The translations under genes were made by a program, and so were the position numbers. DNA of 64,000 nt from Micromonospora inyonensis (GTDB taxonomy: Bacteria > Actinomycetota > Actinomycetes > Mycobacteriales > Micromonosporaceae): assembly GCF_900091415.1 (NCBI RefSeq), contig NZ_FMHU01000002.1, forward strand, positions 1,364,001 to 1,428,000, read 5' to 3'. This document shows positions 7,701-64,000 of the stretch, in pieces (within the stretch, counting starts at the first letter, position 1; each line of letters opens with the position of its first letter). The notes under the pieces were generated by a model that saw only the letters and a program-made list of their open reading frames with translations, made no database searches and was not told where the DNA came from.

Positions 7701-9480
7701 GACCGCCGTGGCAACGCAGGGCACGAAGGCCGCGGTGGTGACACCGGCGGTCGCGACCCCGCACGCCCCGGTCGGTCCGCCGAGATCCCCGACCCTGGAC
7801 AGGCTGCACGACCTCGCCGGACGCTCCAGCGTCGCCGCGGAACTCGCCTCGTTGCTGAGCGACCCCACGGACGGTGTGGTCGTCGACGGCGGTGGCGGGC
7901 ACCCGCCGCCGGTCCCGCCGCGCGTCCACCGTACGGTGCTGCGGGTCGCCCTCGACACGATGCCGTACCTGCGCGACCACTGCTTCTTCGTACAGCCCGA
8001 GGACTGGCCCGAACCGGAGGATCGCTGGCCCGTGGTGCCGGGCACCACCGCCCTGCACCACATGATGGAGGCCGCCCGGCAGGCGGCACCCGGCATGCGG
8101 GTCGTCGGCGTGCGCAGCGCCCGGTTCAACCTCTGGTGCATCGCCGCGCCGCCACAGGACGTTGAGATCACTGTCAAGCCCACCGGTCCCGGCCACCTCT
8201 CGGTGACCTTCGGTAACTACGCCCGCTCGACAGTCGAGGTGGCCCCGGCCTATCCGCACGACCGTCCGGCGTTCTGGCGCCACGATCCCGCCACGGAACA
8301 GCCGCCACGGATCAGCGCCGAGGAGATGTACGCCGAACGGTTCGTGTTCCACGGCCCCCTGTTCCGCGGCGTGACCACGGTGCACGCCGTCGGCGACATG
8401 CACATCCGTGGCGTGGTGACCGCCCCGTCTCCGCCCGGTGGGCTGCTCGACAGCACCTTCCAACTGGTGGCCAACTGGATCGTCACGACGCAACCGTTCT
8501 CGGCGCTGCCGGTGGGAATCGGACACGCACGGTTCTTCGGTCCGCCGCCGGCGCCCGGTACGGCGCTCGAGTGCATCGCCCGCGCGCGCTCGACCGACGA
8601 CGCGCAGCACGTCTTCGACATTCAACTCGCCGTCGACGGCCGGGTATGGGCGCAGCTCGACGGCTGCATCGAGCGACGGTTCAAGAGCCACCCCACCCTG
8701 CCGGAGGAACGTTTCCCGGAGCGCCACCCGATGTCGCTGCGGCAGCCCGAGGGCTGGACCTTGGCCTTCGACTGCTGGCCCGACCTGGTCACCCGGGGCA
8801 TGACCGCGCGCGGCATCCTCGGCAACCGGGGCTATACCGACTACGAGCGGCAGCCGCCCAAGGCGCGCAAGCAGTGGCTGCTCGGCCGGATCGCGGCTAT
8901 CGACGCCGTCCGGTTCCCGCTGTGGGAAAGCGGCCACACCGATGTCTACCCGATCGAGTTGACCATCACGAACGATCCGAACGGCCGGCCCCGGGTGCGC
9001 CCGCGCCCCGGCCGGGGCTTCGGCGCCTGGGACGTCTCACTCGCCCACGTCGCCGAGATCGGGGTGGCGATCGCCGGACCCCGCGTGCCGGAGGCGCTGC
9101 CCGGCGCGCCGGGTGTCGGCATCGACGCTGTCGAGATCACCGAGCCTCCGGAGGACGCGGTCTCGTCCGCACTGTCGGAACCAGAACGACGGCTGTTCGA
9201 ATCGATGCCGGCCAGCGGCGAGGACAGGCAGCTGTGGTTCGCCCGCTTCTCGGCCGCCAGGGAGGCCGTCGCCAAGGCGGAGGGCACCGGCCTGGCCGGC
9301 GACCCACGACGGTTCACGGTGGTGGCCGCCACCCCGGCCGCGCTGACCGTCGAGGTCGGTGACCGCATCTACCAGGTTGCCCATCGCGAGGTGTCCAACC
9401 CCGAGGGCCTGCCCCCGAGGCGGTACGTCGTCGGCTGGACGTGGGGACCGGAGCCTGCCCACCGGACCGGCCGCCCGTAG
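4783..9480 (+). CDS. Second synthase subunit, KS-AT-DH with integral phosphopantetheinyl transferase
   Basis: 1565 residues. The ketosynthase is complete: Cys211 in DAACASS, His349 in EAHGTATPTGD and a third motif GSVKSMIGHT. An acyltransferase-like domain has Ser664 in GYSIGEW but a divergent entry motif (FVFPGLETE). Residues about 1045-1305 form a hot-dog dehydratase-like region. The C-terminus (about 1445-1555) is an Sfp/AcpS-type phosphopantetheinyl transferase with VGIDAVE and FSAAREAVAKA, where the usual KE pair reads RE. The enzyme probably self-activates the ACPs of the partner synthase. The combination resembles the C-terminal half of enediyne-type and PUFA-like synthases. No enoylreductase (PfaD) is present in the window, which predicts an unsaturated or only partly reduced chain. 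ATG 4783 overlaps the upstream stop; 4789 is an alternative start. Confidence 0.9.
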   Translation: MGMSSDQIAIVGMAAVLPGAGDLDGYWRNLVEGFDAIIQVPPHRWDPEFYDPAQAHRPDRVYCRRGGFVDEFATFDPLRFGIMPASVADIEPDQLIALQVAAAAIDDAGGGDRLPAADRVGVILGRGGSISPAAARYALRVRMTSQTINLLRELIPDLPESRLEAVRARFDEQLGEHRPEGTIGLVPNLVASRVANRLNLRGPAYTLDAACASSLIAVDQAISELTSGRLDAVLAGGVHHVHDIGFWSIFSQLGALSRRGEIRPFDSAADGLLIGEGTGIVVLKRTADAVRDGDRIYAVIRGSGGSSDGRAASMVNPVSEGQVLAVRQAWAAAGLDPTAPDALGLLEAHGTATPTGDVVELATIAEVFGPHRGGPRPVIGSVKSMIGHTMPAAGSAALIKAALAVYHGVLLPTLHCDTPRPELAHTRFAPISGAQPWESDGPRRAAVNAFGFGGINAHVILEEAPEAFASRRGGTGTTGLVSRTVSAPAAVDTTAAVTVEQPDEVLWLAAPDPAALARLLDTDDHAVRALGLARARPAGPAGARGQADERCRLGVVDPDTKRLATARRAVAKGQPWHGARDIWFSPAPLLAGDSPGQLAFVFPGLETEFSPRTADVAAHFGLPDRQWSTDDLGRHGAGVIEVGKLLDAALHRVGIAPHAVAGYSIGEWTAAATTGLIRPSSVDEFLAIFNSTAVETPGRVFAVVGGAAQQITARLARYPGVVLTHDNAPAQCIVNGPENEIDRLVEALRGDAILCQKLPFRAAFHTPVFASGLESIGAALPRWQVRSARVPVWSTTLRAPLPTEPARVLEISARHMLEPVWFRQTIAAMHDAGIRVFLQVGAGQLASVIADNLRGRDHLAMPVNVAHRGGLNQLRRVATALWVEGAAPDLSVLDTTAKGRARAAAPAAHPARRGPVMRLDLGGALVRFGEGADKLLGVSVSADHSAGDADGTERTSATNGAGGGSGSVARDATTAVATQGTKAAVVTPAVATPHAPVGPPRSPTLDRLHDLAGRSSVAAELASLLSDPTDGVVVDGGGGHPPPVPPRVHRTVLRVALDTMPYLRDHCFFVQPEDWPEPEDRWPVVPGTTALHHMMEAARQAAPGMRVVGVRSARFNLWCIAAPPQDVEITVKPTGPGHLSVTFGNYARSTVEVAPAYPHDRPAFWRHDPATEQPPRISAEEMYAERFVFHGPLFRGVTTVHAVGDMHIRGVVTAPSPPGGLLDSTFQLVANWIVTTQPFSALPVGIGHARFFGPPPAPGTALECIARARSTDDAQHVFDIQLAVDGRVWAQLDGCIERRFKSHPTLPEERFPERHPMSLRQPEGWTLAFDCWPDLVTRGMTARGILGNRGYTDYERQPPKARKQWLLGRIAAIDAVRFPLWESGHTDVYPIELTITNDPNGRPRVRPRPGRGFGAWDVSLAHVAEIGVAIAGPRVPEALPGAPGVGIDAVEITEPPEDAVSSALSEPERRLFESMPASGEDRQLWFARFSAAREAVAKAEGTGLAGDPRRFTVVAATPAALTVEVGDRIYQVAHREVSNPEGLPPRRYVVGWTWGPEPAHRTGRP

Positions 9481-38881: not shown

Positions 38882-38955
38882 ACGCGGCGGCCAACTGCTC
38901 CACCAGGGCGAGCCCGGCCAAGACGTGACGCCGGGGAGGGCCGGGAGTGGGTTCG

Positions 38956-39030
38956 GCGTGTGGAACGCGGCGGGGCAGGGGCGTGTGGAACGCGGCGGGG
39001 CAGGGGCGTGTGGAACGCGGCGGGGCAGGG
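38956..39030 (+). repeat. Three tandem copies of a 25-bp repeat
   Basis: The unit starts GCGTGTGGAACG and ends GGGCAGGG; three copies are perfect. The 25-base period changes frame in each copy, so it is not a protein repeat. It lies just before a gene fragment and may be a replication-slippage product. Bases 38882-39293 otherwise hold the fragment below. Confidence 0.9.
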
Positions 39031-39220
39031 GTTCGCGCGGACGCAGGAGGGCCTCGCCGAGGAGGGTGTCGTGCGGGTGGCGCTGCCCATGGACGGAAGG
39101 ACCTTCTGCGCCGGGATGCGGTTTCTCGGCCGGGAGCACCTCGGCGAGCGGATCGGCGGCCTTTCCCCGGCGAAGCAGCGCGAGCTCGACGTCGCGATGG
39201 AGCTGTCCGGCGCCGGGTGA
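39031..39220 (+). pseudogene. Gene fragment, possibly MazF/PemK-like C-terminus
   Basis: The frame through 39220 reads VRVALPMDGRTFCAGMRFLG and REHLGERIGGLSPAKQREL, ending in a stop. The R-LGERIGGLSP pattern resembles the C-terminal helix of MazF/PemK toxins. The N-terminal part is lost in the tandem repeat. The similarity is slight, and another family is possible. Confidence 0.35.
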
Positions 39221-44964: not shown

Positions 44965-47900
44965 TTGAGTGCCCCTGGTGGGGGTGGGGAGGGGGCGTTG
45001 GCGGTGGCTGAGGCCGCGGTTCCTTCCGTTGGGCTCAGTGAGTCGTCGAAGCGGGCGTTGGAGGCGTTCACCGGGATGCGGTTGCACCGGTCGAATCTGC
45101 CGGTGTTGGCGTATGACCTGAACGCGTTGGAGGTGTTGGCGGAGCGGTTGCGGACCGTGTTGGTTCCGGAGCTGGCCCAGGTGATCAAGGTGGTTGGGGC
45201 GGCGGGAGAGGGTGAGGTCTTCGACCGGTTCGTGGCGCAGACGGCTCCGTTCGTGGAGTTGTTGGACGGGGTCGCCGACGTGAAGGTCGGCGTGGCTCAG
45301 GCGATGCGGGGCTTCCTGAACCAGATGGAGCTGACGGATCGTCAGGCGCTGGTCATGTTCATCTTCATGATGACGGAGTTGGCGGTCGCGTTCGCGATGG
45401 CGTTCTTCCTGCCGGTGGAGGCGGCGGCGCACATCGTGAAGGTTCGGACGATCATCCAGACGATCCTGCGGTCGTCGATGGTGCGGGCGGCGGCGAGTAG
45501 CACGGCGATTCAGATGTTGTTCATGCCGGGGTCGTCGTTGTTGGCGCAGATCAGCATGATGGCTGATGGTCTGGTGCCGGGGGTCGACTGGGCGCAGGTC
45601 GGTAAGCAGGCGTTGTACGGGTTGGCGGTGGCGGGTGTGACCACGGCGGCCGGGCCGGCGTTGGGCCGGTTCGCGGGGGTCGTGGGTGGTGGTCTGGCGA
45701 AGTTCGGGGTGTCGGATACCACGCGTGACCTGTTGACCCGTTTGTGGATGGTGCCGGTGTCGGAGGTCGGCCTGGAGGTGGTCGGCGATATCGCCGCCAG
45801 CTACATGGTCGACGGGACCTACGACCCCGGCGGTCTCGGTATGGCCGTGATTTCCGGGGCGTTGTCGGGGACGGGTGAGCTGGGCGCGTCCGGGGCCGGG
45901 GCCGCTGCGCGTCGCGTGGCTGTCGGTTTGGGGTTCAATCCGACCCGGCCCCGGTGGAACATGCCCGGTGGCACCGGTTTCACCGCCGACGGCAGGCCGG
46001 TCGCTCCGGTCAATCCGGCACCGTCCACGTATCAGCCGGAGGTCGACGATCCGGCGGGTGCGGGCTCCGGGGGGCAGGCCCCGGTGCCTGTCCCGCCGGT
46101 GCCGGCACCGGCGCTGTCAGCACCGGCACCGGTACCGGAGTGGTCGGCACCGACCATGTCCGCGCCGTCGTGGTCGACGCCGGACCTGCCGGTGCCGTCG
46201 TGGTCCGTGCCGAACTTCTCGGTGCCGCCGGTGCCGGTGGTGCCTGTGCCGGAGTGGTCGGCACCGACCATGTCCGCGCCGTCGTGGTCGGCGCCGGACC
46301 TGCCGGTTCCGTCGTGGTCTGTGCCGAACTTCTCGGTGCCGACGGTGCCGACGGTGCCGGTGGTGCCCGTGCCGGAGTGGGTAGCGGTCGCCGGCGCGCC
46401 GGTGGTGGAGCAGTGGCAGCGGTTCCAGCGGGAACTGGTGGACCACTACGGTGGGCTCCTGGCCGGGACGGGGCAGGCGCGGCAGTTCCTGGCCGCGCTT
46501 CCCGTGCCGGTCGAGCAGGTCTTCACCGAGTGGGCCGACGCTCGGCAGAACGACCCGACCGTTCCCGCTTTCCTGTTCCGGATCGGCCTACCCGCCACCG
46601 CGCTCACCGAGCGGTACCTGTTCGGGGTCCGGGACCAGGCCGTCGCCCGCATCACCGAAGCCCTCGCGGGGCAGATCCCGGCGGGCGGGCAGATCCCGGC
46701 GGTGGTACGGCCGGAGCAGGTCGTCGCCGCGTTGCCGGCGGAGTTCGACCGGCAGGCGTTGCGCTCGGCCGTGCATCTGGCCGCCCAGCACCACATCGAC
46801 CAGTACCTCACCACCGCCACACCGACGCCCGTCACCCTGCAAGGCGGACTGGTCCTGCCCGGGGCCGTTCAGGTGCCGGGGGCCCCTGGCCTGCCGGGCG
46901 GTGCTGGCGTGCCGGGCGGTGCTGCCCTGCCGGCGGTCGTCGGTACGCCGGGGACCCCGGGCGTGCCGGGTGGCGCGGGCGTGCCGGGGGCCGCCGGGGC
47001 GGCGGCGGTGCCGTCGGACGCCGTGCGCGCCGCGGTCGCGCGTGACGTGCGGACCCACGTGGACCGGAGCCTCGACGCGATCCTCGGCACCAACCCACTA
47101 CCCACCGCACCACTCACCATGCCGTCGGCCGTGCCGTCGGCCGTGCCGTCGGCCGTGCCGTCGGCCGTGCCGTCGGCTGCGGTGGCCGGTCCGGACGCCG
47201 CGCAGGTCAACGCCGTGGCGGACGTGGTCCGCCAGGTGGTCACCGACCTACCCGCCCGCTTCACGGCCGCGGTCATCCCCGACACCACCGCACCGGAGGC
47301 CACCCCAGCCGGCACGGACACCCCGGCACACGGGCGCACCGACGTGCCGACGGTGCCGGTGACCCCGGAGCAGCACACCGCAGCAGCGACCAGCCTGGCG
47401 GAATCCCAGTTCACCGCCCTGGCGAAGGAGTACGGCGTCGAGCCGGCCAACCACGACACCCTCGCCGGATCCTTCCGACAGGACTGGGTCGACGGATACC
47501 ACCAGGTACTCGCCCAGGCCACCGCCACCCCCGGCACCCCGGCCATGCCCGGGGTGCCGGCCATGCCCGGGGTGCCGGCCATGCCCGGGGTGCCGGCCAT
47601 GCCCAGCGTGCCGGCGATCCCCAGCACGTCGGACGCGCCGGGAACTCCGGGCACGCCGGATGCGGCCGGGGGCCGCAGTCCGGTGCCGGTCGGCGCGGCC
47701 CCCCGCACCGACGGCACGCCGATCCACGACAACGCCAGCGACCGGATGTCAGTCAGTGACATGTCCGTCTCCAGTGAGGACATGTTCAGCCGCGACAGCA
47801 GTTTCCACGACACCATGACGGTCAGTGACCTCTCCTCGTCGGACGAGCCGATCAGCCGTGACCCCGTCAAGGGCGAAGTCAGTGACACGGATTCGTTCAG

Positions 47901-50900
47901 TGGCGTGTCCTTGTGGGACGACCCGATCGGTGGTGAGCCTGGCGGACGCGGTGAGCCGGCTGTAACGGCGACTGGGCCGGCCGTAACGGCGACTGGGCTG
48001 GCCGTGGGGATGGTCGAGTCCGGGCGGCGGGGCGGTGACTGGGCTATCGCGGAGCAGGTGCGTCCCGGCGGCGGTGACGGGTGGTGGTGTGTGGCGGCGA
48101 CGTTCGATGTGTTCCGGGCCGAGTACGGGCGGCTGGGTAACCGGGTGGTGTTCGACGACCGGGTCATGGGAGCGGATGGGCGGCTCGCGCCGACTATGGG
48201 TTGGTCGCAGCTGATGGAGATCCTCGATGCGGTACCGGAGCGTGTCGCTCAGCCGGGCGGGGTTGCGGGAGAGGATGTGCTGGCGGGGTTGCGGGCGGTG
48301 CCGGGGTCGATGGTCGTGGTCAGGGTCGCGCCACCGAACGAACCGCAGCATGTGTTCGCTCTTTCCAGCCAGCCGCGGGGTTCCGGGCCGGCGAGGATCC
48401 GGGTGCGGGATCCTCTGGTGCCCGGGGCGGTGGACCGGCCCGAGCCGGAGGATCCGGTACGTGATCCGTGGCTGCGGCATCTGTTCGTATCCGGTACCCG
48501 GGTGGCGGTGTTCGATGGGGACGGGCGGCCCACCACGATCAGCGGTCTCCTCGGCCGGACCGGCGGGCACCGGCGGCCGGTCACCGCGGCCGGTACCGAT
48601 GTCGGTGGGTTCCTGCTCGCCTCGACCAGCACGCCACGCGGCCCGTCGCACGCGATGCGGGCTGACACCACCGTTGCCGGCCCGGTCGACTCCCCGAGGT
48701 CCGGTCCGGTGGGCGAGGACGGCTCGTCTGGTCCTGGTCTGGCGTTTGGTGTCCAGGCTTTCCCGGATGTCGTCCCCTCGGATCTGGAGGGGATGGATCT
48801 GGGCACACCACAGCTCGACGGCGGGTGGGAGCCGGCGCGGGACACCGGACAGGCCGAGTCCCCGCTGACGGAAGTACCCGGGATGCCGGACCTGGGCCCG
48901 GATCTGGACCCGGACCCGGATCTGGGTCGATTGGGTGTGCCGTCGCTTGATGAGGATGGTGCGTGGGTGTCGTCGGTGGTGGGGGACCCGGCGCCGGTGG
49001 GGGTTGCGCGGGAGGGGGTTGCGGCTGGTGTGGGTGGGGTTGCCCCGCTACCGGAGCCGCCGGATCATGTGGTTCATTGGCGGCCCGGTGAGGATGGGCC
49101 CGCGACCCTCCGCGCATACCTGGAGACGGTGGAACTCCCCGACGGGGTGTCCCTGGACCCCGACAAAAAGGGGAGGTTGGGGTCGGGGATGGCCGCTTGG
49201 GTGAAAGCCTGGGCACAGGGACTGCGGGGTAAGACCACCCCCGACGGCCACCCCTACACCCAGGACGCGGTAGCCACACTGTCCGGCAACCTGACCAACC
49301 AGCAAACGGTCGGGAATTATTGGCGGGAGGTGGCGGCGCCGCTGCCCCCGCCGCCGGGTCATGTGGTTCGTTGGCGGCCCGGTGAGGGTGGGCCCGTGAC
49401 CCTCCGCGCATACCTGGAGACGCTGAAACTCCCCGACCGGGTGTCCCTGGACCCCGACAAAAAGGGGAGGCTGGGGCCGGGGATGGCCGCTTGGGTGAAA
49501 GCCTGGGCACAGGGACTGCAGGGTAAGACCACCCCCGACGGCCACCCCTACACCCTGGCTGCGGTAGCCGCACTGTCCGGCGACCTGATCAACCAGGTAT
49601 CGGTCTTGAGATATTGGCGGGAGGTGGCGGCGCCGCTGCCCCCGCCGCCGGGTCATGTGGTTCGTTGGCGGCCCGGTGAGGGTGGGCCCGTGACCCTCCG
49701 GGCATACCTGGAGACGGTGGAACTCCCCGAGGGGGTGTCCTTGGACACCGGCAAAAAGGGGAGGCTGGGGTCGGGGATGGCCGCTTGGGTGAAAGCCTGG
49801 GTACAGGGACTGCGGGGTGAGACCACCCCCGACGGCCACCCCTACACCCTGGACGCGGTAGTCACACTGTCCGGCAACCTGATCAACCAGCAAACGGTCG
49901 GGAATTATTGGCGGGAGGTGGCGGCGCCGCTGCCCCCGCCGCCGGGTCATGTGGTTCGTTGGCGGCCCGGTGAGGGTGGGCCCGTGACCCTCCGGGCATA
50001 CCTGGAGACGGTGGAACTCCCCGAGGGGGTGTCCCTGGACCGCGACCAACTCGGAAGGCTGGGGCCGGGGATGGCCGCTTGGGTGAAAGCCTGGGCACAG
50101 GGACTGCGGGGTAAGACCACCCCCGACGGCCACCCCTACACCCAGGATGAGGTAGCCGCACTGTCCGGCAATCTGATCAACCAGCAAACGGTCGGGACAT
50201 ATTGGCGGGTGGCGGCGCCGCTGCCCCCGCCGCCGGATCATGTGGTTCGCTGGCGGCCCGGTGAGGATGGGCCCGTGACCCTCCGCGCATACCTGGAGAC
50301 GGTGGAACTCCCCGACCGGGTGTCCCTGAACACCGGCAAACAGGGGAAGCTGGGGCCGGGGATGGCCGCTTGGGTGAAAGCCTGGGCACAGGGACTGCGG
50401 GGTGAGACCACCCCCGACGGCCACCCCTACACCCAGGACGCGGTAGCCGCACTGTCCGGCAACCTGACCACCCAGGGATCGGTCGGGAATTATTGGCGGG
50501 AGGCGGCGCCGCCGCTGCCCCCGCCGCCGGATCACGTGTCCACTTGGCGGCCCGGTGAGGATGGGCCCGTGACCCTCCGTGCATACCTGGAGACGGTGGA
50601 ACTCCCTGACGGGGTGTCCCTGGACACCGACAAGAAGGGGTATCTGGGGTCGGGGATGGCCGGTTGGGTGAAAGCCTGGGCACAGGGACTGCGGGGTGAG
50701 ACCACCCCCGACGGCCACCCCTACACCCAGGATGAGGTAGCCGCACTGTCCGGCAACTTGATCAACCGGCGAACGGTCGGGAGATATTGGCGGGAGGTGG
50801 CGCCGCCGCTGCCCCCACCGCCGGATCACGTGTCCACTTGGCGGCCCGGTGAGGATGGGCCGGCGACCCTCCGCGCATACCTGGAGACGGTGGAACTCCC

Positions 50901-53900
50901 CGAGGGGGTGTCCCTAAACACCGACAAAAACGGGAAATTGGGGCAGGGGATGGTCGCTTGGGTGAAAGCCTGGGTGCAGGGACTACAGGATGAGACCACC
51001 CCCGACGGCCACCCCTACACCCAGGCTGCGGTAGTCACACTGTCCGGCAACCTGACCAACCAGACATCGGTCTGGAGATATTGGCGGGAGCCGGCGCCGC
51101 CGCTGCCCCCGCCGCCGGATCACGTGGCCACGTGGCGGCCCGGCGAGGATGGGCATGACCCGTCTCAACGCGACACGGAAATCCTCGACCCGGAAATCCT
51201 CGACCCGGAACTCCTTGACCCGACGCTTCTTGACCCGGCGGTCGTGGAGGATCCGGGGTTGCCGGACCTGGGCCCGGGCGTGGGTCTAGGCCTGGCAGGG
51301 GTGGATCTGTCGGGATCGCCGCCGGGCTTGGGGTGGACGCCACCGGACGGCACCGATCAGGTCGATTCTCTGTTCCCGCTGTCGGAGGTGCCCGGGCTGG
51401 ATGGTTCGTCGCCGCACGCGATGCGGGCTGACACCACCGTTGCCGACCCGGTTGACTCCCCGAGGTCCGGTTCGGTGGGCGAGGACGGCTCGTCTGGTCC
51501 TGGTCTGGAGTTTGGTGTCCAGGCGTTCCCGGGTGTCGTCCCCTGGGATCTGGAGGGGGTGGATCTGGGCACACTGCAACTCGACGGCGGGTTGGAGCCG
51601 GCGCGGGACACCGGACAGGCCGAGTCTCCGTTGATGGGAGTTCCCGGGCTGGATGGTCCGTGGGCGTCCTCAGCAGTGGAGGACACCGCGACCGTGGCGG
51701 TCCCGCACCAGCGGGACGCGGGAGACCACGACCGGTCTCAACGCGACCCGGAACTCCTTGACCCGGAACTCCTTGACCCGATGCTTCTTGACCCGGCAGT
51801 CGTGGAGGATCCGGGGTTGCCGGACCTGGGTCCGGGCGTGGGTCTAGGCCTGGCAGGGGTGGATCTGTCGGGATCGCCGCCGGGCTTGGGGTGGACGCCA
51901 CCGGACGGCACCGATCAGGTCGATTCTCTGTTCCCGCTGTCGGAGGTGCCCGGGCTGGATGGTTCGTCGCCGCACGCGATGCGGGCTGACACCACCGTTG
52001 CCGACCCGGTTGACTCCCCGAGGTCCGGTTCGGTGGGCGAGGACGGCTCGTCTGGTCCTGGTCTGGAGTTTGGTGTCCAGGCGTTCCCGGGTGTCGTCCC
52101 CTGGGATCTGGAGGGGGTGGATCTGGGCACACTGCAACTCGACGGCGGGTTGGAGCCGGCGCGGGACACCGGACAGGCCGAGTCTCCGTTGATGGGAGTT
52201 CCCGGGCTGGATGGTCCGTGGGCGTCCTCAGCAGTGGAGGACACCGCGACCGTGGCGGTCCCGCACCAGCGGGACGCGGGGGACCACGACCGGTCTCAAC
52301 GCGACCCGGAACTCCTCGACCCGGAACTCCTTGACCCGACGCTTCTTGACCCGGCAGTCGTGGAGGATCCGGGGCTGCCGGACCTGGGCCCGGATCTGGG
52401 CCCGGATCTGGGCCCGGATCTGGGCCCGGACCTGGACCTGGACCTGGACCTGGACCTGGACCTGGACCTGGACCTGGACCTGGACCTGGACCTGGACCTG
52501 GACCTGGACCAGGATCCGGATCCGGATCTGGATCTGGATCTGGATCGATTGGCTGTGCCGACGCTTGATGAGGATGGTGCGTGGGTGGCGTCGGTGGTGG
52601 GAGACCCGGCGCCGGTGGGGGTTGCGCGGGAGGGGGTTCTGGCCGGTGTGGGTGGGGTTGCCCAGGCCGGGTGGGAGTTTCCGGTGCCGGCTGATGGGTT
52701 TTGTGTGTTGTCGGCGTTGGTGGCGGCTGATCCGGTGTGGGTGCGGGACGTGTTGGCGGGGGCGGGGGTGTTGCCGGCGGATCTGTATGCGTGGCTGTCT
52801 GATCCTGGTGGGGTGCGTGTCGGTGTGGGGCGGTTGGGTGGTGTGGTGCCGGTCGGGTCTGAGTTGGGCCGGGTGGATGGGTTGTTGCAGGGGCTTGTCC
52901 TGTCGTATCTGGGTGCTCGGGTCGGGGGGTTGCCGGCGGATGTGGTGATGCGGCGGGCGTTTCTGCCGCAGGGGGAGCCGTGGCGGCAGGTGCGGGGGCT
53001 CAGTGATGGGCAGGTGGTGGCGCGGTTGGTGGAACGTCTGGGTGGTCAGGGGGTGTTGGGGGGTGGTGTGGTGACTGAGGCTGGGTTTCTGGATGTGGGG
53101 CGGGTCGGGCAGCGGTATGAGGAGGCGCGTGCGGAGTTGGTCGGGTTGGGGTGGGATCCGGGTCCGGTGACGGAGGTGCCGCAGGAGCAGTTGGATTTTG
53201 TCAATGGGCGTGGTCGGGGTTTTCAGGTGGCGTTGTTGGCGCCGGAGCGGGCGCGTGACTATCTGGTGCATGTGTTGCTTACGTCTGATGGGCCGTTGGA
53301 GGCGGACGAGTTCGCCGAGGTCGTGGAGACGGTGGCTGATTGGGGTCGTCGGTGGGGTGGGCCGGGTGGGGAGTTCCTGCTGCCGTTGTTGGCTCATGCC
53401 ACGGGTAGTCGGATCACGGTGTTGCAGCGCACCGGGTGGGGGGTGAGCCCGGTGGCGGTGTTCGGGCCGTTGGACGGCCGGGGGGTCAGCTTGTATTACG
53501 TCGCTGGCGACCCGGCGAATCCCGCCCTCTACAACCACTACAACGCCGCTGTTTCCGCTGCTGTCCTGTTGCCGTCCGGGCCGGCCGGGTTGTCGTGGTC
53601 GGACGACTGGGACCGGTTGTTCACGCGGTTCGCCGGTGTGCTGGGGCTGGGGTCCGCAGCGGGTGAGCGGACATTGGCGCCAGGAGCTGAGAATGTGCGT
53701 CATCGTCTGCAGGTGGAGTTCGACCACGTCGTGGGCAGAACCGGCTTCGTGGAGGAGAATGGTCTGTCCACGGCGGATGTGGCGATGCTGCGGCAGGCCC
53801 TGGACACGCGTGGGACGTCCGTTCCTCACCTTGAGGGGGCGCTGCTACGTCTGATGTCGCAGGTGTATGAAGTGACCATCGCGGTGACCTCTGCCGGGTC

Positions 53901-55893
53901 GGGATTCCACGGTGACCATGTTGTCGGATCCGGGTATTTCAGGACGGTTGCCCTGGACCTCTCCGACACTCAGGTCATGCCCGGCCCGGCAGCTCTGCAG
54001 ACGCCGGCGGCGTCCATGCCGGCCCCTGCGGCCCGACCGGTGACCCCGCAGCCCTCACCACCCCCACCCCCACCCACATCCACAACCGCGGTACCGCTAC
54101 CGGCGCCACCGGATCATGTGGTTCATTGGCGGCCCGGTGAGGATGGGCCCGCCACCCTCCGCGCATACCTGGAGACGGTGGAACTCCCCGACCGGGTGTC
54201 CCTGGACCCCGACAAACAGGGGAAGCTGGGGTCGGGGATGGCCGCTTGGGTGAAAGCCTGGGTACAGGGACTGCGGGGTAAGACCACCCCCGACGGCCAC
54301 CCCTACACCCTGGATGCGGTAGTCGCACTGTCCGGCAACCTGATCGACCAGAGCACGGTCTCGAGATATTGGTCAAATGTGGCGCCGCCGCCGCCGGATC
54401 ATGTGGTTCGTTGGCGGCCCGGTGCGGATGGGCCCGCGACCCTCCGCGCATACCTGGAGACGCTGGACCTCCCCGACCTGGTGTCCCTAAACCCCGACAA
54501 ACTCGGAAGGCTGGGGTCGGGGATGGCCGCTTGGGTGAAAGCCTGGGTACAGGGACTGCAGGGTAAGACCAGCCCCGACGGCCGCCGCTACACCGAGGCA
54601 GCGGTAGCCGCACTGTCCGGCGGCCTGATCAACCGGCGAACGGTCGGGAGATATTGGCAGGAGGCGCCTCCGCCGCCGGATCATGTGGTTCGTTGGCGGC
54701 CCGGTGCGGATGGGCCCGCGACCCTTCGCGAATACCTGGAGACGGTGGAACTCCCCGACCGGGTGTCCCTGGAACCCGACAGAAAGGGGAGGCCGGGGTC
54801 GGGGATGGCCGCTTGGGTGAAAGCCTGGGCGCGGGGACTGCAGGGTAAGACCACCCCCGACGGCCACCCCTACACCGAGGAAGCGGTAGTCACACTGTCC
54901 GGCAACCTGATCAACAAGAGCACGGTCGGGAAATACTGGCGGAAGGTGGCGCCACCGCCGCCGCTGCCACCGCCGCTGGATCATGTGGTTCGTTGGCGGC
55001 CCGGTGCGGATGGGCCCGCGACCCTTCGCGAATACCTGGAGACGGTGGAACTCCCCGACCGGGTGTCCCTGGAACCCGACGAAAAGGGGAGGCTGGGGTC
55101 GGGGATGGCCGCTTGGGTGAAAGCCTGGGTGCGGGGACTGCGGGGTAAGACCACCCCCGACGGCCACCCTTACACCGAGGAAGCGGTAGCCGCACTGTCC
55201 GGCAACCTGATCAACCAGCAAACGGTCGGGACATATTGGCAGGAGGTGGCGCCGCCGCCGCCGGATCATGTGGTTCGTTGGCGGCCCGGTGAGGATGGGC
55301 CCGCGACCCTCCGCGAATACCTGGAGACGGTGGAACTCCCCGACCGGGTGTCCCTGGAACCCGACGAAAAGGGGAGGCTGGGGCCGGGGATGGCCGCTTG
55401 GGTGAAAGCCTGGGTACAGGGACTGCAGGGTAAGACCACCCCCGACGGCCACCTTTACACCCAGGAAGCGGTAGCCGCACTGTCCGGCAACCTGATCAAC
55501 CAGCAAACGGTCGGGACATATTGGCAGGAGGTGGCGCCGCCGCCGCCGGATCATGTGGTTCGTTGGCGGCCCGGTGAGGATGGGCCCGCGACCCTCCGCG
55601 AATACCTGGAGACGCTGGACCTCCCCGACCTGGTCTCCCTGGACCCCCACAAACCCGGGAGGCTGGGGTCGGGGATGGCCGCTTGGGTGAAAGCCTGGGT
55701 ACAGGGACTGCGGGGTAAGACCACCCCCGACGGCCGCCGCTACACCCTGGACGCGGTAGCCGCGCTGTCCGGCGGCCTGATCAACCGGCGATTGGTCGCG
55801 ACATATTGGCGGGAGGCGGCACCGTCGCTCCCTCCACCACACGGAACGGGTCAAGGTCCTGACCGGACGTCTACTTCGCCTTCGCGTCAGTAG
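44965..55893 (+). CDS. Giant modular CpnT-like protein with papain-fold, OTU-like and 13 HTH-like repeats
   Basis: 3642 residues counted from TTG 44965; GTG 45004, ten bases after GGGGAGGGGG, is a likelier start. The N-terminal about 350 residues are helical, with hydrophobic stretches (ALVMFIFMMTELAVAFAMAFF), as in type VII-secreted toxin N-termini. Pro-rich repeats follow. Residues about 1020-1200 form a papain-fold (Tox-PL-like) domain: Cys1042 in WWCVAA, His1129 in QHVFAL, Asp1149 in RVRDPL. Then come repeats R1-R7 plus truncated R8 (49055-51152), a duplicated Asp/Pro linker, a DL tract, an OTU-like domain (Asp2577, Cys2580, His2858 in NHYNAAV) and repeats R9-R14 to the end. No immunity gene is seen downstream. 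It may be a secreted effector or a repeat-based DNA-binding protein; both readings are inference. Confidence 0.85.
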   Translation: MSAPGGGGEGALAVAEAAVPSVGLSESSKRALEAFTGMRLHRSNLPVLAYDLNALEVLAERLRTVLVPELAQVIKVVGAAGEGEVFDRFVAQTAPFVELLDGVADVKVGVAQAMRGFLNQMELTDRQALVMFIFMMTELAVAFAMAFFLPVEAAAHIVKVRTIIQTILRSSMVRAAASSTAIQMLFMPGSSLLAQISMMADGLVPGVDWAQVGKQALYGLAVAGVTTAAGPALGRFAGVVGGGLAKFGVSDTTRDLLTRLWMVPVSEVGLEVVGDIAASYMVDGTYDPGGLGMAVISGALSGTGELGASGAGAAARRVAVGLGFNPTRPRWNMPGGTGFTADGRPVAPVNPAPSTYQPEVDDPAGAGSGGQAPVPVPPVPAPALSAPAPVPEWSAPTMSAPSWSTPDLPVPSWSVPNFSVPPVPVVPVPEWSAPTMSAPSWSAPDLPVPSWSVPNFSVPTVPTVPVVPVPEWVAVAGAPVVEQWQRFQRELVDHYGGLLAGTGQARQFLAALPVPVEQVFTEWADARQNDPTVPAFLFRIGLPATALTERYLFGVRDQAVARITEALAGQIPAGGQIPAVVRPEQVVAALPAEFDRQALRSAVHLAAQHHIDQYLTTATPTPVTLQGGLVLPGAVQVPGAPGLPGGAGVPGGAALPAVVGTPGTPGVPGGAGVPGAAGAAAVPSDAVRAAVARDVRTHVDRSLDAILGTNPLPTAPLTMPSAVPSAVPSAVPSAVPSAAVAGPDAAQVNAVADVVRQVVTDLPARFTAAVIPDTTAPEATPAGTDTPAHGRTDVPTVPVTPEQHTAAATSLAESQFTALAKEYGVEPANHDTLAGSFRQDWVDGYHQVLAQATATPGTPAMPGVPAMPGVPAMPGVPAMPSVPAIPSTSDAPGTPGTPDAAGGRSPVPVGAAPRTDGTPIHDNASDRMSVSDMSVSSEDMFSRDSSFHDTMTVSDLSSSDEPISRDPVKGEVSDTDSFSGVSLWDDPIGGEPGGRGEPAVTATGPAVTATGLAVGMVESGRRGGDWAIAEQVRPGGGDGWWCVAATFDVFRAEYGRLGNRVVFDDRVMGADGRLAPTMGWSQLMEILDAVPERVAQPGGVAGEDVLAGLRAVPGSMVVVRVAPPNEPQHVFALSSQPRGSGPARIRVRDPLVPGAVDRPEPEDPVRDPWLRHLFVSGTRVAVFDGDGRPTTISGLLGRTGGHRRPVTAAGTDVGGFLLASTSTPRGPSHAMRADTTVAGPVDSPRSGPVGEDGSSGPGLAFGVQAFPDVVPSDLEGMDLGTPQLDGGWEPARDTGQAESPLTEVPGMPDLGPDLDPDPDLGRLGVPSLDEDGAWVSSVVGDPAPVGVAREGVAAGVGGVAPLPEPPDHVVHWRPGEDGPATLRAYLETVELPDGVSLDPDKKGRLGSGMAAWVKAWAQGLRGKTTPDGHPYTQDAVATLSGNLTNQQTVGNYWREVAAPLPPPPGHVVRWRPGEGGPVTLRAYLETLKLPDRVSLDPDKKGRLGPGMAAWVKAWAQGLQGKTTPDGHPYTLAAVAALSGDLINQVSVLRYWREVAAPLPPPPGHVVRWRPGEGGPVTLRAYLETVELPEGVSLDTGKKGRLGSGMAAWVKAWVQGLRGETTPDGHPYTLDAVVTLSGNLINQQTVGNYWREVAAPLPPPPGHVVRWRPGEGGPVTLRAYLETVELPEGVSLDRDQLGRLGPGMAAWVKAWAQGLRGKTTPDGHPYTQDEVAALSGNLINQQTVGTYWRVAAPLPPPPDHVVRWRPGEDGPVTLRAYLETVELPDRVSLNTGKQGKLGPGMAAWVKAWAQGLRGETTPDGHPYTQDAVAALSGNLTTQGSVGNYWREAAPPLPPPPDHVSTWRPGEDGPVTLRAYLETVELPDGVSLDTDKKGYLGSGMAGWVKAWAQGLRGETTPDGHPYTQDEVAALSGNLINRRTVGRYWREVAPPLPPPPDHVSTWRPGEDGPATLRAYLETVELPEGVSLNTDKNGKLGQGMVAWVKAWVQGLQDETTPDGHPYTQAAVVTLSGNLTNQTSVWRYWREPAPPLPPPPDHVATWRPGEDGHDPSQRDTEILDPEILDPELLDPTLLDPAVVEDPGLPDLGPGVGLGLAGVDLSGSPPGLGWTPPDGTDQVDSLFPLSEVPGLDGSSPHAMRADTTVADPVDSPRSGSVGEDGSSGPGLEFGVQAFPGVVPWDLEGVDLGTLQLDGGLEPARDTGQAESPLMGVPGLDGPWASSAVEDTATVAVPHQRDAGDHDRSQRDPELLDPELLDPMLLDPAVVEDPGLPDLGPGVGLGLAGVDLSGSPPGLGWTPPDGTDQVDSLFPLSEVPGLDGSSPHAMRADTTVADPVDSPRSGSVGEDGSSGPGLEFGVQAFPGVVPWDLEGVDLGTLQLDGGLEPARDTGQAESPLMGVPGLDGPWASSAVEDTATVAVPHQRDAGDHDRSQRDPELLDPELLDPTLLDPAVVEDPGLPDLGPDLGPDLGPDLGPDLDLDLDLDLDLDLDLDLDLDLDLDLDQDPDPDLDLDLDRLAVPTLDEDGAWVASVVGDPAPVGVAREGVLAGVGGVAQAGWEFPVPADGFCVLSALVAADPVWVRDVLAGAGVLPADLYAWLSDPGGVRVGVGRLGGVVPVGSELGRVDGLLQGLVLSYLGARVGGLPADVVMRRAFLPQGEPWRQVRGLSDGQVVARLVERLGGQGVLGGGVVTEAGFLDVGRVGQRYEEARAELVGLGWDPGPVTEVPQEQLDFVNGRGRGFQVALLAPERARDYLVHVLLTSDGPLEADEFAEVVETVADWGRRWGGPGGEFLLPLLAHATGSRITVLQRTGWGVSPVAVFGPLDGRGVSLYYVAGDPANPALYNHYNAAVSAAVLLPSGPAGLSWSDDWDRLFTRFAGVLGLGSAAGERTLAPGAENVRHRLQVEFDHVVGRTGFVEENGLSTADVAMLRQALDTRGTSVPHLEGALLRLMSQVYEVTIAVTSAGSGFHGDHVVGSGYFRTVALDLSDTQVMPGPAALQTPAASMPAPAARPVTPQPSPPPPPPTSTTAVPLPAPPDHVVHWRPGEDGPATLRAYLETVELPDRVSLDPDKQGKLGSGMAAWVKAWVQGLRGKTTPDGHPYTLDAVVALSGNLIDQSTVSRYWSNVAPPPPDHVVRWRPGADGPATLRAYLETLDLPDLVSLNPDKLGRLGSGMAAWVKAWVQGLQGKTSPDGRRYTEAAVAALSGGLINRRTVGRYWQEAPPPPDHVVRWRPGADGPATLREYLETVELPDRVSLEPDRKGRPGSGMAAWVKAWARGLQGKTTPDGHPYTEEAVVTLSGNLINKSTVGKYWRKVAPPPPLPPPLDHVVRWRPGADGPATLREYLETVELPDRVSLEPDEKGRLGSGMAAWVKAWVRGLRGKTTPDGHPYTEEAVAALSGNLINQQTVGTYWQEVAPPPPDHVVRWRPGEDGPATLREYLETVELPDRVSLEPDEKGRLGPGMAAWVKAWVQGLQGKTTPDGHLYTQEAVAALSGNLINQQTVGTYWQEVAPPPPDHVVRWRPGEDGPATLREYLETLDLPDLVSLDPHKPGRLGSGMAAWVKAWVQGLRGKTTPDGRRYTLDAVAALSGGLINRRLVATYWREAAPSLPPPHGTGQGPDRTSTSPSRQ
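46132..46380 (+). repeat. Pro-rich duplication in the giant gene
   Basis: Two near-identical segments encode PVPEWSAPTMSAPSWS, PDLPVPSWSVPNFSVP; the second begins near 46252. They form an extended linker between the N-terminal and middle domains. Shorter 12-bp (47119-47175) and 18-bp (47541-47615) unit repeats also encode linkers. Confidence 0.85.
48010..48590 (+). other. Papain-fold (toxin glutamine-deamidase-like) domain
   Basis: GDGWWCVAATFDVF, then MVVVRVAPPNEPQHVFALSS, then ARIRVRDPL give a Cys-His-Asp order. This matches papain-like toxin domains that deamidate or proteolyse host protein, as in Tox-PL. Spacing is about 87 and 20 residues. Confidence 0.6.
49055..51152 (+). repeat. Repeat block 1: seven 97-98-residue HTH-like repeats plus a truncated eighth
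   Basis: CGGCCCGGTGAG anchors lie at 49081, 49375, 49669, 49963, 50254, 50548, 50842 and 51136, i.e. steps of 294 or 291 bases. Each unit holds DHVVRWRPGEDGP, TLRAYLETVELP, GMAAWVKAW and TTPDGHPYTQ, then a helix-turn-helix-like end ALSGNLINQQTVGNYW. The eighth copy stops matching after 51152. Confidence 0.95.
51182..52297 (+). repeat. 558-bp tandem duplication (186 codons)
   Basis: GGTCTAGGCCTGGC occurs at 51283 and again at 51841, and the surrounding sequence is almost identical for 558 bases. The unit encodes an Asp/Leu/Pro/Gly-rich linker (LDPELLDP, VVEDPGLPDLGPG, SHAMRADTTVADP). A diverged third copy of its middle lies at 48645-48990. Confidence 0.95.
52381..52550 (+). repeat. Hexanucleotide GACCTG microsatellite and GGCCCGGATCTG repeats
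   Basis: A 12-bp unit encoding GPDL is repeated about four times, then GACCTG/GATCTG hexamers encode a (Asp-Leu) tract from about 52429 to 52545. Because units are multiples of three, length change would keep the frame. Confidence 0.93.
52660..53960 (+). other. OTU-like cysteine-protease domain of the giant protein
   Basis: VPADGFCVLSALVAADP fits the DGxC nucleophile of OTU proteases; GSRITVLQRTGW and GPLDGRGVSLYYVAG precede the NHYNAAV histidine. The core is about 285 residues and followed by a further helical region to 53960. OTU domains cleave ubiquitin-like or peptide bonds; in polymorphic toxins they act as effectors. Confidence 0.65.
54100..55830 (+). repeat. Repeat block 2: six HTH-like repeats
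   Basis: Anchors are at 54130, 54415, 54697, 54997, 55282 and 55567. Units are 94-100 residues, the same family as block 1 but with shorter Pro linkers and more TLREYLETVELPDR forms. They run almost to the stop codon of the giant gene. Confidence 0.95.
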
Positions 55894-62878: not shown

Positions 62879-63064
62879 CTACCGAAGTGTCCGAGTGAAG
62901 ACTGACCACGTGCGGGTGGAGAACATGAGGACCCCGCTGGCCCGGTCTTTGCTATCGCGTACGGCGACAACGCCGGGCAGGTTGGTTGCTACCTCCACGC
63001 ATGCTCCACCGTTGTCGCCGCTGTAGCTGCTCTTGCGCCAGCGGGCCATCGTCAGATCAGGCAC
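62879..63064 (-). CDS. DUF397-family protein
   Basis: 61 residues from GTG 63064 (ATG 63049 is also possible). The family signature WRKSSYSGDNGGACVEVA is followed by VAVRDSKD and the FSTRTWSVF end, as in DUF397 proteins. It overlaps the end of the helix-turn-helix gene by eight bases. Such pairs are very common in actinomycetes; DUF397 proteins are thought to antagonise the partner regulator. Confidence 0.9.
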   Translation of the reverse strand: MPDLTMARWRKSSYSGDNGGACVEVATNLPGVVAVRDSKDRASGVLMFSTRTWSVFTRTLR

Positions 63065-63938
63065 CGTGAACCTCCCCAAGGGTTTTGTTGATCAGATGCT
63101 TGGATTCTCCCGCGCCGAGTGCTAACGCGTCGAGGCTCGACCAAACCCGCTCGTACGCGCCTACCTCTTCGGGACGATCGAGGTATAGGGCTCCCGTCAA
63201 GGACTCGCAGTAGATCACCGGCGGTTGCGGTGTGGATCGGTTACCTGGCGGGAAGTCGAGCATCATGAACGTTCCTGCCAGTGCGCCATAGTGCGCGCCT
63301 GCCATGAGGGGTAGCACGCGGATCGAGAGCTTCGGTATCTCGGCGACCTCCAGGAGGTGCGACAACTGCTCGGCCATCGTGGCGGCGTCGCCGATGCGCT
63401 TGAGCAGGACAGACTCTGCGAGGAAGAGTTCTACCTCCGGCGCTTTGGGGAGCCGCCGCGTCAGGATCCCCTGTCGTTGCAGTCGCACCTGGATGTACTG
63501 CTCCAACTTCTCCTCGGTCACATCGTCGCGATGTTGGAACACGCCTCGTACGTAGGCAGGTGTCTGTAGCAGCCCGTTGATCAAAGACTCGTCGTAGCCG
63601 CGTAGGCGGGAGGCGGCCTGTTCGAGGCTGACGTACAGCTCGAACCAGTCGGGGATGGCGTTGCCGTAGGAGTGCCACCAGCCTTTGGCCTTGGTTTCGG
63701 CGGCGAGGTTGGTGAGGGCGTCGGAGAGTTCGCGGGTGGCCCCGTACAGCTCGCACATGAAGCGGACGTCGAGTGGGCGGACCGAACCGAGGCCGGACTC
63801 GATACGCCACATCTTCTGCCGGCTACAGTGCAGCGCTTCCGCTACCGCGTCCAAGGTCATCTGGGCTTCGACGCGTAGCTCCTTCAGAGCCCGCCCGAGC
63901 TGCCGTCTAGGGACGGTCGATCCCATGTCGTCGGCCAT
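63057..63938 (-). CDS. Helix-turn-helix regulator with DUF5753 domain
   Basis: 293 residues from ATG 63938. The N-terminal XRE-type helix-turn-helix is RRQLGRALKELRVEAQMTLDA with VAEALHCSRQKMWRIESG. The C-terminal DUF5753 sensor includes WFELYVSLEQAASRLRGYDES, INGLLQTPAYVR and VELFLAESVLLKRIGD, with LSIRVLPLMAGAHYG. It forms a pair with the overlapping DUF397 gene. Targets are unknown; related pairs affect development or antibiotic genes. Confidence 0.93.
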   Translation of the reverse strand: MADDMGSTVPRRQLGRALKELRVEAQMTLDAVAEALHCSRQKMWRIESGLGSVRPLDVRFMCELYGATRELSDALTNLAAETKAKGWWHSYGNAIPDWFELYVSLEQAASRLRGYDESLINGLLQTPAYVRGVFQHRDDVTEEKLEQYIQVRLQRQGILTRRLPKAPEVELFLAESVLLKRIGDAATMAEQLSHLLEVAEIPKLSIRVLPLMAGAHYGALAGTFMMLDFPPGNRSTPQPPVIYCESLTGALYLDRPEEVGAYERVWSSLDALALGAGESKHLINKTLGEVHGA

Positions 63939-64000
63939 CCGCCACCCCTTTCCGTGTTGCTTTCTGTTACATCGCGCCGCCATCGGTGAAACGTGGTTCT

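Follow-up and report, generated by a model that had tools for sequence, protein, structure and literature searches.

What is a single bacterial gene doing with thirteen copies of a module that differ most at the predicted start of one helix? The question is raised by a giant open reading frame (ORF) of Micromonospora inyonensis, located at 44965..55893 on the + strand of a 64,000-nucleotide stretch (positions 1,364,001 to 1,428,000 of contig NZ_FMHU01000002.1, assembly GCF_900091415.1), referred to here as the window. The frame of 3642 residues was called from TTG 44965 with an uncertain start (GTG 45004 is an alternative), and the genome has five further giants paralogous to it. A row of similar modules whose differences centre on the beginning of a helix that could touch a target gives the impression of a set of exchangeable molecular readers. 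The answer that we favor, tentatively and at close to an even chance, is an array of helix-turn-helix (HTH)-like modules diversified at putative ligand-contact positions, with DNA as the likeliest ligand, in giant proteins that resemble polymorphic toxins.

Two blocks of tandem units in one open reading frame

There are a total of 13 full units of ~95 residues and one truncated unit in the ORF, all in one + strand frame and arranged as a block of seven at 49054-51108 and a block of six at 54103-55833, with ~3 kb of non-unit sequence between the blocks. Tandem Repeats Finder reported 7.1 copies of 294 bp (90% matches) and 6.0 copies of 285 bp (89%), indicating that the periodicity is not due to chance; the unit spacing is 94-100 residues. 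In the first block the units and the heptads at their variable region are unit 1 (49063..49323, NQQTVGN at 49297-49317), unit 2 (49357..49617, NQVSVLR at 49591-49611), unit 3 (49651..49911, NQQTVGN at 49885-49905), unit 4 (49945..50205, NQQTVGT at 50179-50199), unit 5 (50236..50496, TQGSVGN at 50470-50490), unit 6 (50530..50790, NRRTVGR at 50764-50784) and unit 7 (50824..51084, NQTSVWR at 51058-51078). The truncated unit follows this block at 51118..51153 (DHVATWRPGEDG), on the same strand, and continues into an Asp-rich linker. The second block comprises unit 8 (54112..54372, DQSTVSR at 54346-54366), unit 9 (54397..54657, NRRTVGR at 54631-54651), unit 10 (54679..54939, NKSTVGK at 54913-54933), unit 11 (54979..55239, NQQTVGT at 55213-55233), unit 12 (55264..55524, NQQTVGT at 55498-55518) and unit 13 (55549..55809, NRRLVAT at 55783-55803).

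An earlier note, made by reading the letters of this DNA, had reported thirteen units, and its heptads match ours letter for letter (9 of the 13 are distinct). Its wording, near-identical repeats of ~95 residues, was right in length and count and too strong for the sequence, as the mean pairwise identity is 78.5% and the scaffold is polymorphic as well (45 of 87 columns invariant). Identity among the 13 units is 51% at columns 79-85 versus 81% at the remaining columns. Between the blocks lie an OTU-like domain (below), a run of Asp-Leu repeats and a linker sequence that is present twice, at a distance of 558 bp. At the nucleotide level, a 300-nt stretch is found in two copies, 98% alike and 558 bp apart, at 51186-52043, and a run of the hexanucleotide GGACCT is found further on.

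Variation peaks at the same columns in two species

Across the M. inyonensis genome (6.92 Mb, 4 contigs) we identified 93 unit matches, of which 91 belong to the six giant paralogues and the other two, both weak, to a further frame of 10,625 residues (contig C2, ~568-582 kb). The six loci yielded 87 full units, each spanning 87 columns and no two alike; the remaining matches in these loci were partial, in broken frames or missed by the extraction pattern. In one paralogue (L024) the frame is broken in two, with 3208 and 223 residues, and a degenerate unit with stops sits after the array of another (L025). A second set came from M. olivasterospora, which has at least 82 unit matches genome-wide: ten loci with 63 matches, of which 60 complete units in nine loci, of other homogenised unit types, were analysed.

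Of all stretches of eight columns, 78-85 is the most variable, both in the 87 units (permutation p = 0.0099) and in the 13 units of the window (p = 0.026), and these 9% of columns carry 22-23% of the amino-acid entropy. In M. inyonensis columns 81 and 85 rank first, column 79 ties for fifth behind 36 and 68, and column 80 is moderately variable (0.84 bits); columns 38, 5, 14 and 67 vary further. The four most variable columns in M. olivasterospora are 85, 81, 80 and 79, and column entropies in the two species are correlated (Spearman 0.66; 0.61 without the helix). The peak that the earlier note had placed at the helix is therefore found in both species, and by column entropy the even spread of variation that it had named as grounds for rejection did not occur. 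There are 60 distinct octets at columns 78-85 among the 87 units, and the quintet of columns 79, 80, 81, 84 and 85 takes 48 distinct forms in these units and 47 in the 60 units of M. olivasterospora. The hydrophobic anchors of the helix, V83, Y86 and W87, are identical in 87/87 units.

Units recombine and the helix start is enriched in non-synonymous change

The ratio of non-synonymous to synonymous differences (pN/pS) is 5.15 at columns 78-85 and 0.78 in the scaffold for the 87 units, as compared to 5.95 and 1.17 for the 13 units of the window. All six M. inyonensis loci with at least five units exhibited a higher ratio at the helix than in the scaffold (a fragment with a single unit was left out). 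Units are shuffled by recombination: all four gametes occur at 1244 of 2060 site pairs, r2 is 0.068 for sites up to 30 nt apart and 0.028 over the following 30 nt, the divergence of the scaffold shows no correlation with that of the helix (−0.07), and 44 of the 87 units have their nearest unit, ties counted, in their own locus, with ~16% expected for one random neighbour. Because the units recombine, pairwise pN/pS is not a formal test, and we therefore counted distinct alleles once per column. The non-synonymous to synonymous counts are 27:2 at the helix versus 102:41 in the scaffold (p = 0.017), and 19:0 versus 55:22 in the window alone (p = 0.005). In M. olivasterospora pN is higher at the helix than in the scaffold in 9/9 loci and the pN/pS ratio in 7/9 (exceptions L070 and L074). 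The synonymous versus non-synonymous comparison proposed in the earlier note thus found the non-synonymous excess of M. inyonensis concentrated at the helix, and the helix-start columns have most likely been diversified by selection.

We rejected a diversity-generating retroelement as the source of variation. The genome has 10 RVT_1 matches, each more than 20 kb away from any array locus of the six, and the adenine signature is absent, with 19 of 40 helix base changes in M. inyonensis at C, G or T (a template repeat was not sought).

The variable columns map to a predicted helix-turn-helix

An AlphaFold2 model of one unit (predicted template modelling score 0.74) contains helices at residues 70-77 and 83-94 joined by a tight turn, and with the heptad at model residues 82-88 the variable columns are predicted to lie at the start of the last helix. 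The predicted local distance difference test score is 83, and by block 86-90 for residues 61-90 and 65 for residues 91-98. The one-unit prediction suggested in the earlier note thus returned a model in which a helix of the HTH arrangement is present.

For a profile test we compared a C-terminal unit segment, chosen by us, with HTHs of the M. inyonensis genome (13 LacI, 25 sigma region 4 and 12 HTH_24 sequences) and with nine RpoN ends. In hhalign this segment gave P = 0.0006 with LacI and 0.003 with RpoN, and the scores with LacI (16.9), RpoN (16.1) and sigma region 4 (12.1) each exceeded those of 40/40 column shuffles. Known HTH families score 10.8-17.2 against RpoN in the same test, placing the unit equally close to RpoN. 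With the whole unit, P was 0.004 for LacI and 0.01 for RpoN over 46 columns. The HTH falls in the same register as that of the sigma-54 RpoN box and of LacI-type proteins. The LacI alignment has a turn two residues longer, and the RpoN alignment is gapless from the turn glycine onward, so that RpoN and the unit share the spacing from turn glycine to helix (SGNLINRRTVGRYW against EQGIMVARRTVAKYR). A single Escherichia coli RpoN sequence aligned with the wrong part of the unit profile; the nine-sequence RpoN profile gave the right register. A comparison with the LacI headpiece aligned only 10 columns.

The unit nevertheless differs from both families, with which it shares a similarity of profile that is borderline (P 0.0006-0.01). 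No Pfam model exceeded its cut-off on a single unit, and neither PF04552 nor PF00356 was reported for the 33 units scanned. Sigma-54 had no match in the M. inyonensis genome, PDB sequence searches with the unit reached E = 0.17 at best, and helicase-associated (HA) domains, another candidate, were in no Pfam output. Among relatives all Pfam HTH matches were below cut-off: HTH_24 on P0002 (21.5 bits, cut-off 21.9), and HTH_32 and LacI on P0004. On the whole ORF, DUF6965 (37.6 bits, cut-off 25) and DUF7917 (29.7 bits, cut-off 27) exceeded their cut-offs; no single stretch passes and the best span is 18-19 residues, and we took these scores as summed repeated chance matches. The NCBIfam hits HpaC and TIGR00156 were far below cut-off.

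Distribution of the unit

A search with a single sequence found the unit in one of 61 Micromonospora genomes, its own, and in none of 60 congeners. With a mixed profile, four of 300 genomes of the family matched: M. inyonensis, one congener (apparently M. olivasterospora) and two of another genus. Six of 397 genomes matched at the level of the order, including frames of 9,259, 11,795 and 16,768 residues, and two of 396 at the level of the phylum, the second match being weak and with an internal stop. Relatives were further found in Lentzea, Catellatospora and Saccharopolyspora; a contig search with one alignment (A1) found none and with another (A3) found two Lentzea loci. Lentzea units have 28-45% identity to the first unit of the window, a divergence indicating that the unit is older than the homogenised arrays. 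One search for short proteins with the unit gave three matches (two partial M. olivasterospora proteins and one apparently from M. inyonensis), with no complete standalone protein among the candidates.

The frame of 16,768 residues (genome G766; part of it at L106 1-20000) has one divergent unit per ~1,030-1,600 residues. The units within this frame are nearly identical and only slightly variable in the helix region, in contrast to the Micromonospora arrays.

Other domains of the giant proteins

The N-terminal region of the ORF (45028..46017, + strand) has a hydrophobic segment and is present in the six M. inyonensis paralogues, with 55% identity in one M. olivasterospora locus (L075). It has no Pfam match. 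The N-terminus of a Lentzea relative is WXG100_2 (PF25547, 56.5 bits) and did not align with the family of the window. Three EccC genes of type VII secretion are above cut-off in the M. inyonensis genome.

Before the first block lies a domain with an invariant WWC ... H ... RDP pattern (48013..48615, + strand), which has no library match and which by eye appears papain/C39-like. The OTU-like domain between the blocks (52648..53625, + strand) was assigned by motif, with DGxC near its start and NHYN near its end; these are presumably the catalytic Cys and His motifs of OTU proteases. Both are invariant in 9/9 aligned sequences (8 Micromonospora, 1 Catellatospora). This domain of the window matched nothing in Pfam (PF02338), NCBIfam or PDB, and a Saccharopolyspora relative scored 14 bits with PF02338 (cut-off 23.3). 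In M. inyonensis the WWC domain and the OTU-like motif are found in 6/6 giants, with unit blocks on both sides of the OTU-like domain. In M. olivasterospora both are found in 7/9 loci, with a single array after the OTU-like domain, and neither was seen in L068 and L074.

The two Lentzea loci and G897 have a conserved domain of ~300 residues after the units that appears SET-like by eye (L078 11423-12814 and 14828-15874; L108 6127-8190). NF043024 (LegAS4) gave weak scores of 12-16 bits in 3/3 Lentzea pieces and 24.3 bits for the whole of P0001, against a cut-off of 550; there was no Pfam match and no SET protein among the PDB matches. The Lentzea domain is preceded by a basic KR-x-L-x-D-D ... 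KRRAT stretch, and to read this as a nuclear signal would be speculation. No immunity gene was recognised among the nine neighbouring ORFs of the array, scanned with Pfam only.

Elsewhere in the window, two large ORFs at 101-9480 encode ketosynthase, acyltransferase, ketoreductase, carrier and phosphopantetheinyl transferase domains and are part of a polyketide synthase cluster. A perfect 25-bp tandem repeat of 3.1 copies is found at 38955-39031, where a long minus-strand ORF has no Pfam match, and a gene with HTH_31 and DUF5753 domains is found on the minus strand at 63057-63983.

A possible mechanism and its alternatives

The units are small helical modules with a predicted HTH at the C-terminal end, joined by proline-rich linkers in arrays of ~4-9, and recombination among the units and loci of a genome maintains the likeness of their scaffold. 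The start of the last helix is diversified, most likely by selection, at columns 79, 80, 81 and 85 and less so at 84. Each module would then present one short recognition helix that reads a few base pairs, and the array as a whole may read a composite target, most likely DNA. The giants resemble exported polymorphic toxins in combining a hydrophobic N-terminus with a papain-like domain and a cysteine protease of OTU-like type. If they are exported and active, the array would serve for targeting and the enzyme would carry out the activity.

The contact positions are consistent with this mechanism. Across HTH-DNA complexes these are reported to be positions 10, 11, 14 and 15 of a common frame (PMC4653904), and columns 80, 81, 84 and 85 share their i, i+1, i+4, i+5 spacing. 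Several observations weigh against DNA-reading HTH modules. Any generic exposed face at a helix start would be expected to exhibit a similar spacing. The M. inyonensis units are net acidic. Fold searches with both models gave weak scores and cyclins tie. The HTH_24 score with the C-terminal segment (9.7) was equalled by 5/40 column shuffles, and LacI, sigma region 4 and HTH_24 score 29-37 among themselves, far above the unit. The allele-level test in M. olivasterospora, on the last 24 columns only, was not significant (p = 0.54). Thus, of the HTH with a changing contact helix in the earlier note, the position of the heptad in the model and the register with LacI and RpoN have stood, and the fold search has lent it little. 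The modular array reading a composite site, also put forward there, agrees with the spacing and the diversified columns, with DNA as a putative ligand.

A protein may be the ligand of an HTH-like fold, with the hypervariable helix face recognising partner or rival proteins in self/non-self recognition, immunity or the binding of host factors. We regard this alternative as unlikely, if the strongest of those considered. The same evolutionary pattern occurs in the repeats of fungal NOD-like receptors (NLRs), in which selected ANK sites lie on the binding surface (PMC4986451, in its available part), and the net acidic units and the single search that gave no complete standalone unit protein among its candidates point in the same direction. 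The HTH-DNA contact spacing and the profile similarity to DNA-binding HTHs argue for DNA instead, as does the composition of the helix: 99-100% of the M. inyonensis units have N, Q, R, K, S, T or H at columns 80 and 85, and acidic residues occur at columns 80, 81, 84 and 85 in 0/87 of them (some are present in M. olivasterospora).

An adhesive or antigenically varying surface stalk, whose repeats vary to evade phages, predators or immunity and have no single ligand, is improbable. It would account for the proline-rich linkers, the giant size, the many paralogues, the recombination between units and the Asp-Leu repeats between the blocks, which resemble linker sequence, but the variation has its strongest focus where one helix begins, on columns that coincide between the two species, and enzyme-like domains are found within the same proteins. 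Least probable is relaxed constraint with homogenisation, in which the scaffold stays uniform through conversion and change at the helix face is simply tolerated: a scaffold ratio of ~0.8-1.2 does indicate weak overall constraint, pN/pS is no dependable test of selection when units recombine and the M. olivasterospora allele test fails, yet the helix ratio of 5-6 is above neutrality, 27 of 29 helix alleles in M. inyonensis and 19 of 19 in the window are non-synonymous, and the V83, Y86 and W87 anchors do not change.

Comparison with known systems

Arrays of diversified HTH-like modules resemble several known systems in part. The Cys2His2 (C2H2) zinc-finger arrays of PRDM9 exhibit concerted evolution with a non-synonymous excess at the DNA-contact positions −1, 3 and 6, and the same protein has a histone methyltransferase domain (PMC2779102, in its available part). 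The M. inyonensis arrays share the similar tandem modules, the concerted evolution and the excess at putative contact positions, and the methyltransferase domain would have a counterpart in the SET-like domain of the Lentzea relatives, whose identity as SET is weak. PRDM9 is an animal protein with zinc-coordinating fingers, whereas the modules here are helical, 94-100 residues long and in giant bacterial proteins. No Cys column is conserved in the 87 units.

Transcription activator-like (TAL) effectors (TALEs) act following delivery into host cells. With these and TALE-like proteins (Bat, RipTAL, STAR) the arrays share a bacterial origin, a fixed scaffold and variable positions in each repeat. 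TALE repeats have 34 residues, with residues 12 and 13 variable, in the available part of PMC11417379, which mentions neither Micromonospora nor helix-turn-helix; none of the actinobacterial terms that we looked for occurs in PMC5472282. The description of the repeat sets the two apart, as TAL effectors have 33-35-residue repeats variable at 12 and 13 and the units have 94-100 residues with about five variable positions within columns 79-85, on an HTH-like helix.

Actinobacterial polymorphic toxins with WXG and OTU domains are described in PMC3482391. Like these, the proteins are giant, with papain-like and OTU-like peptidases and, in the Lentzea relative, a WXG100_2 N-terminus. Unlike them, the C-terminus is the array, with no swapped toxin domain, and HTH arrays do not appear in the available part of that source. 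Fungal NLR repeats with high internal conservation are likewise shuffled within and between family members and have selected sites on the binding face, in the available part of PMC4986451; they are WD, ANK or TPR repeats in nucleoside triphosphatase (NTPase) receptors, and no NOD module was seen here. A search of the open-access literature found no paper on this protein family (subscription papers and preprints were outside the search).

Implications

The broadest interpretation, which we consider doubtful, is that of an undescribed class of modular nucleic-acid readers, in which HTH modules in tandem have a conserved scaffold and about five code positions for recognition, gain new target specificities as recombination shuffles them, and serve as the targeting part of exported OTU-like or SET-like effectors. 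If true, bacteria would have an equivalent of PRDM9 or TAL effectors on an HTH fold, whose targets might be eukaryotic chromatin, rival cells or phages. Should the ligand be a protein, repeat arrays in which one contact face is diversified would still be an unusual finding in bacteria. Were the arrays to read DNA, each paralogue would hold a natural code table in the succession of its variable residues, the module may provide a new and possibly programmable DNA-binding scaffold, and the question would arise why soil actinomycetes carry at least six and at least nine such giant genes in two genomes.
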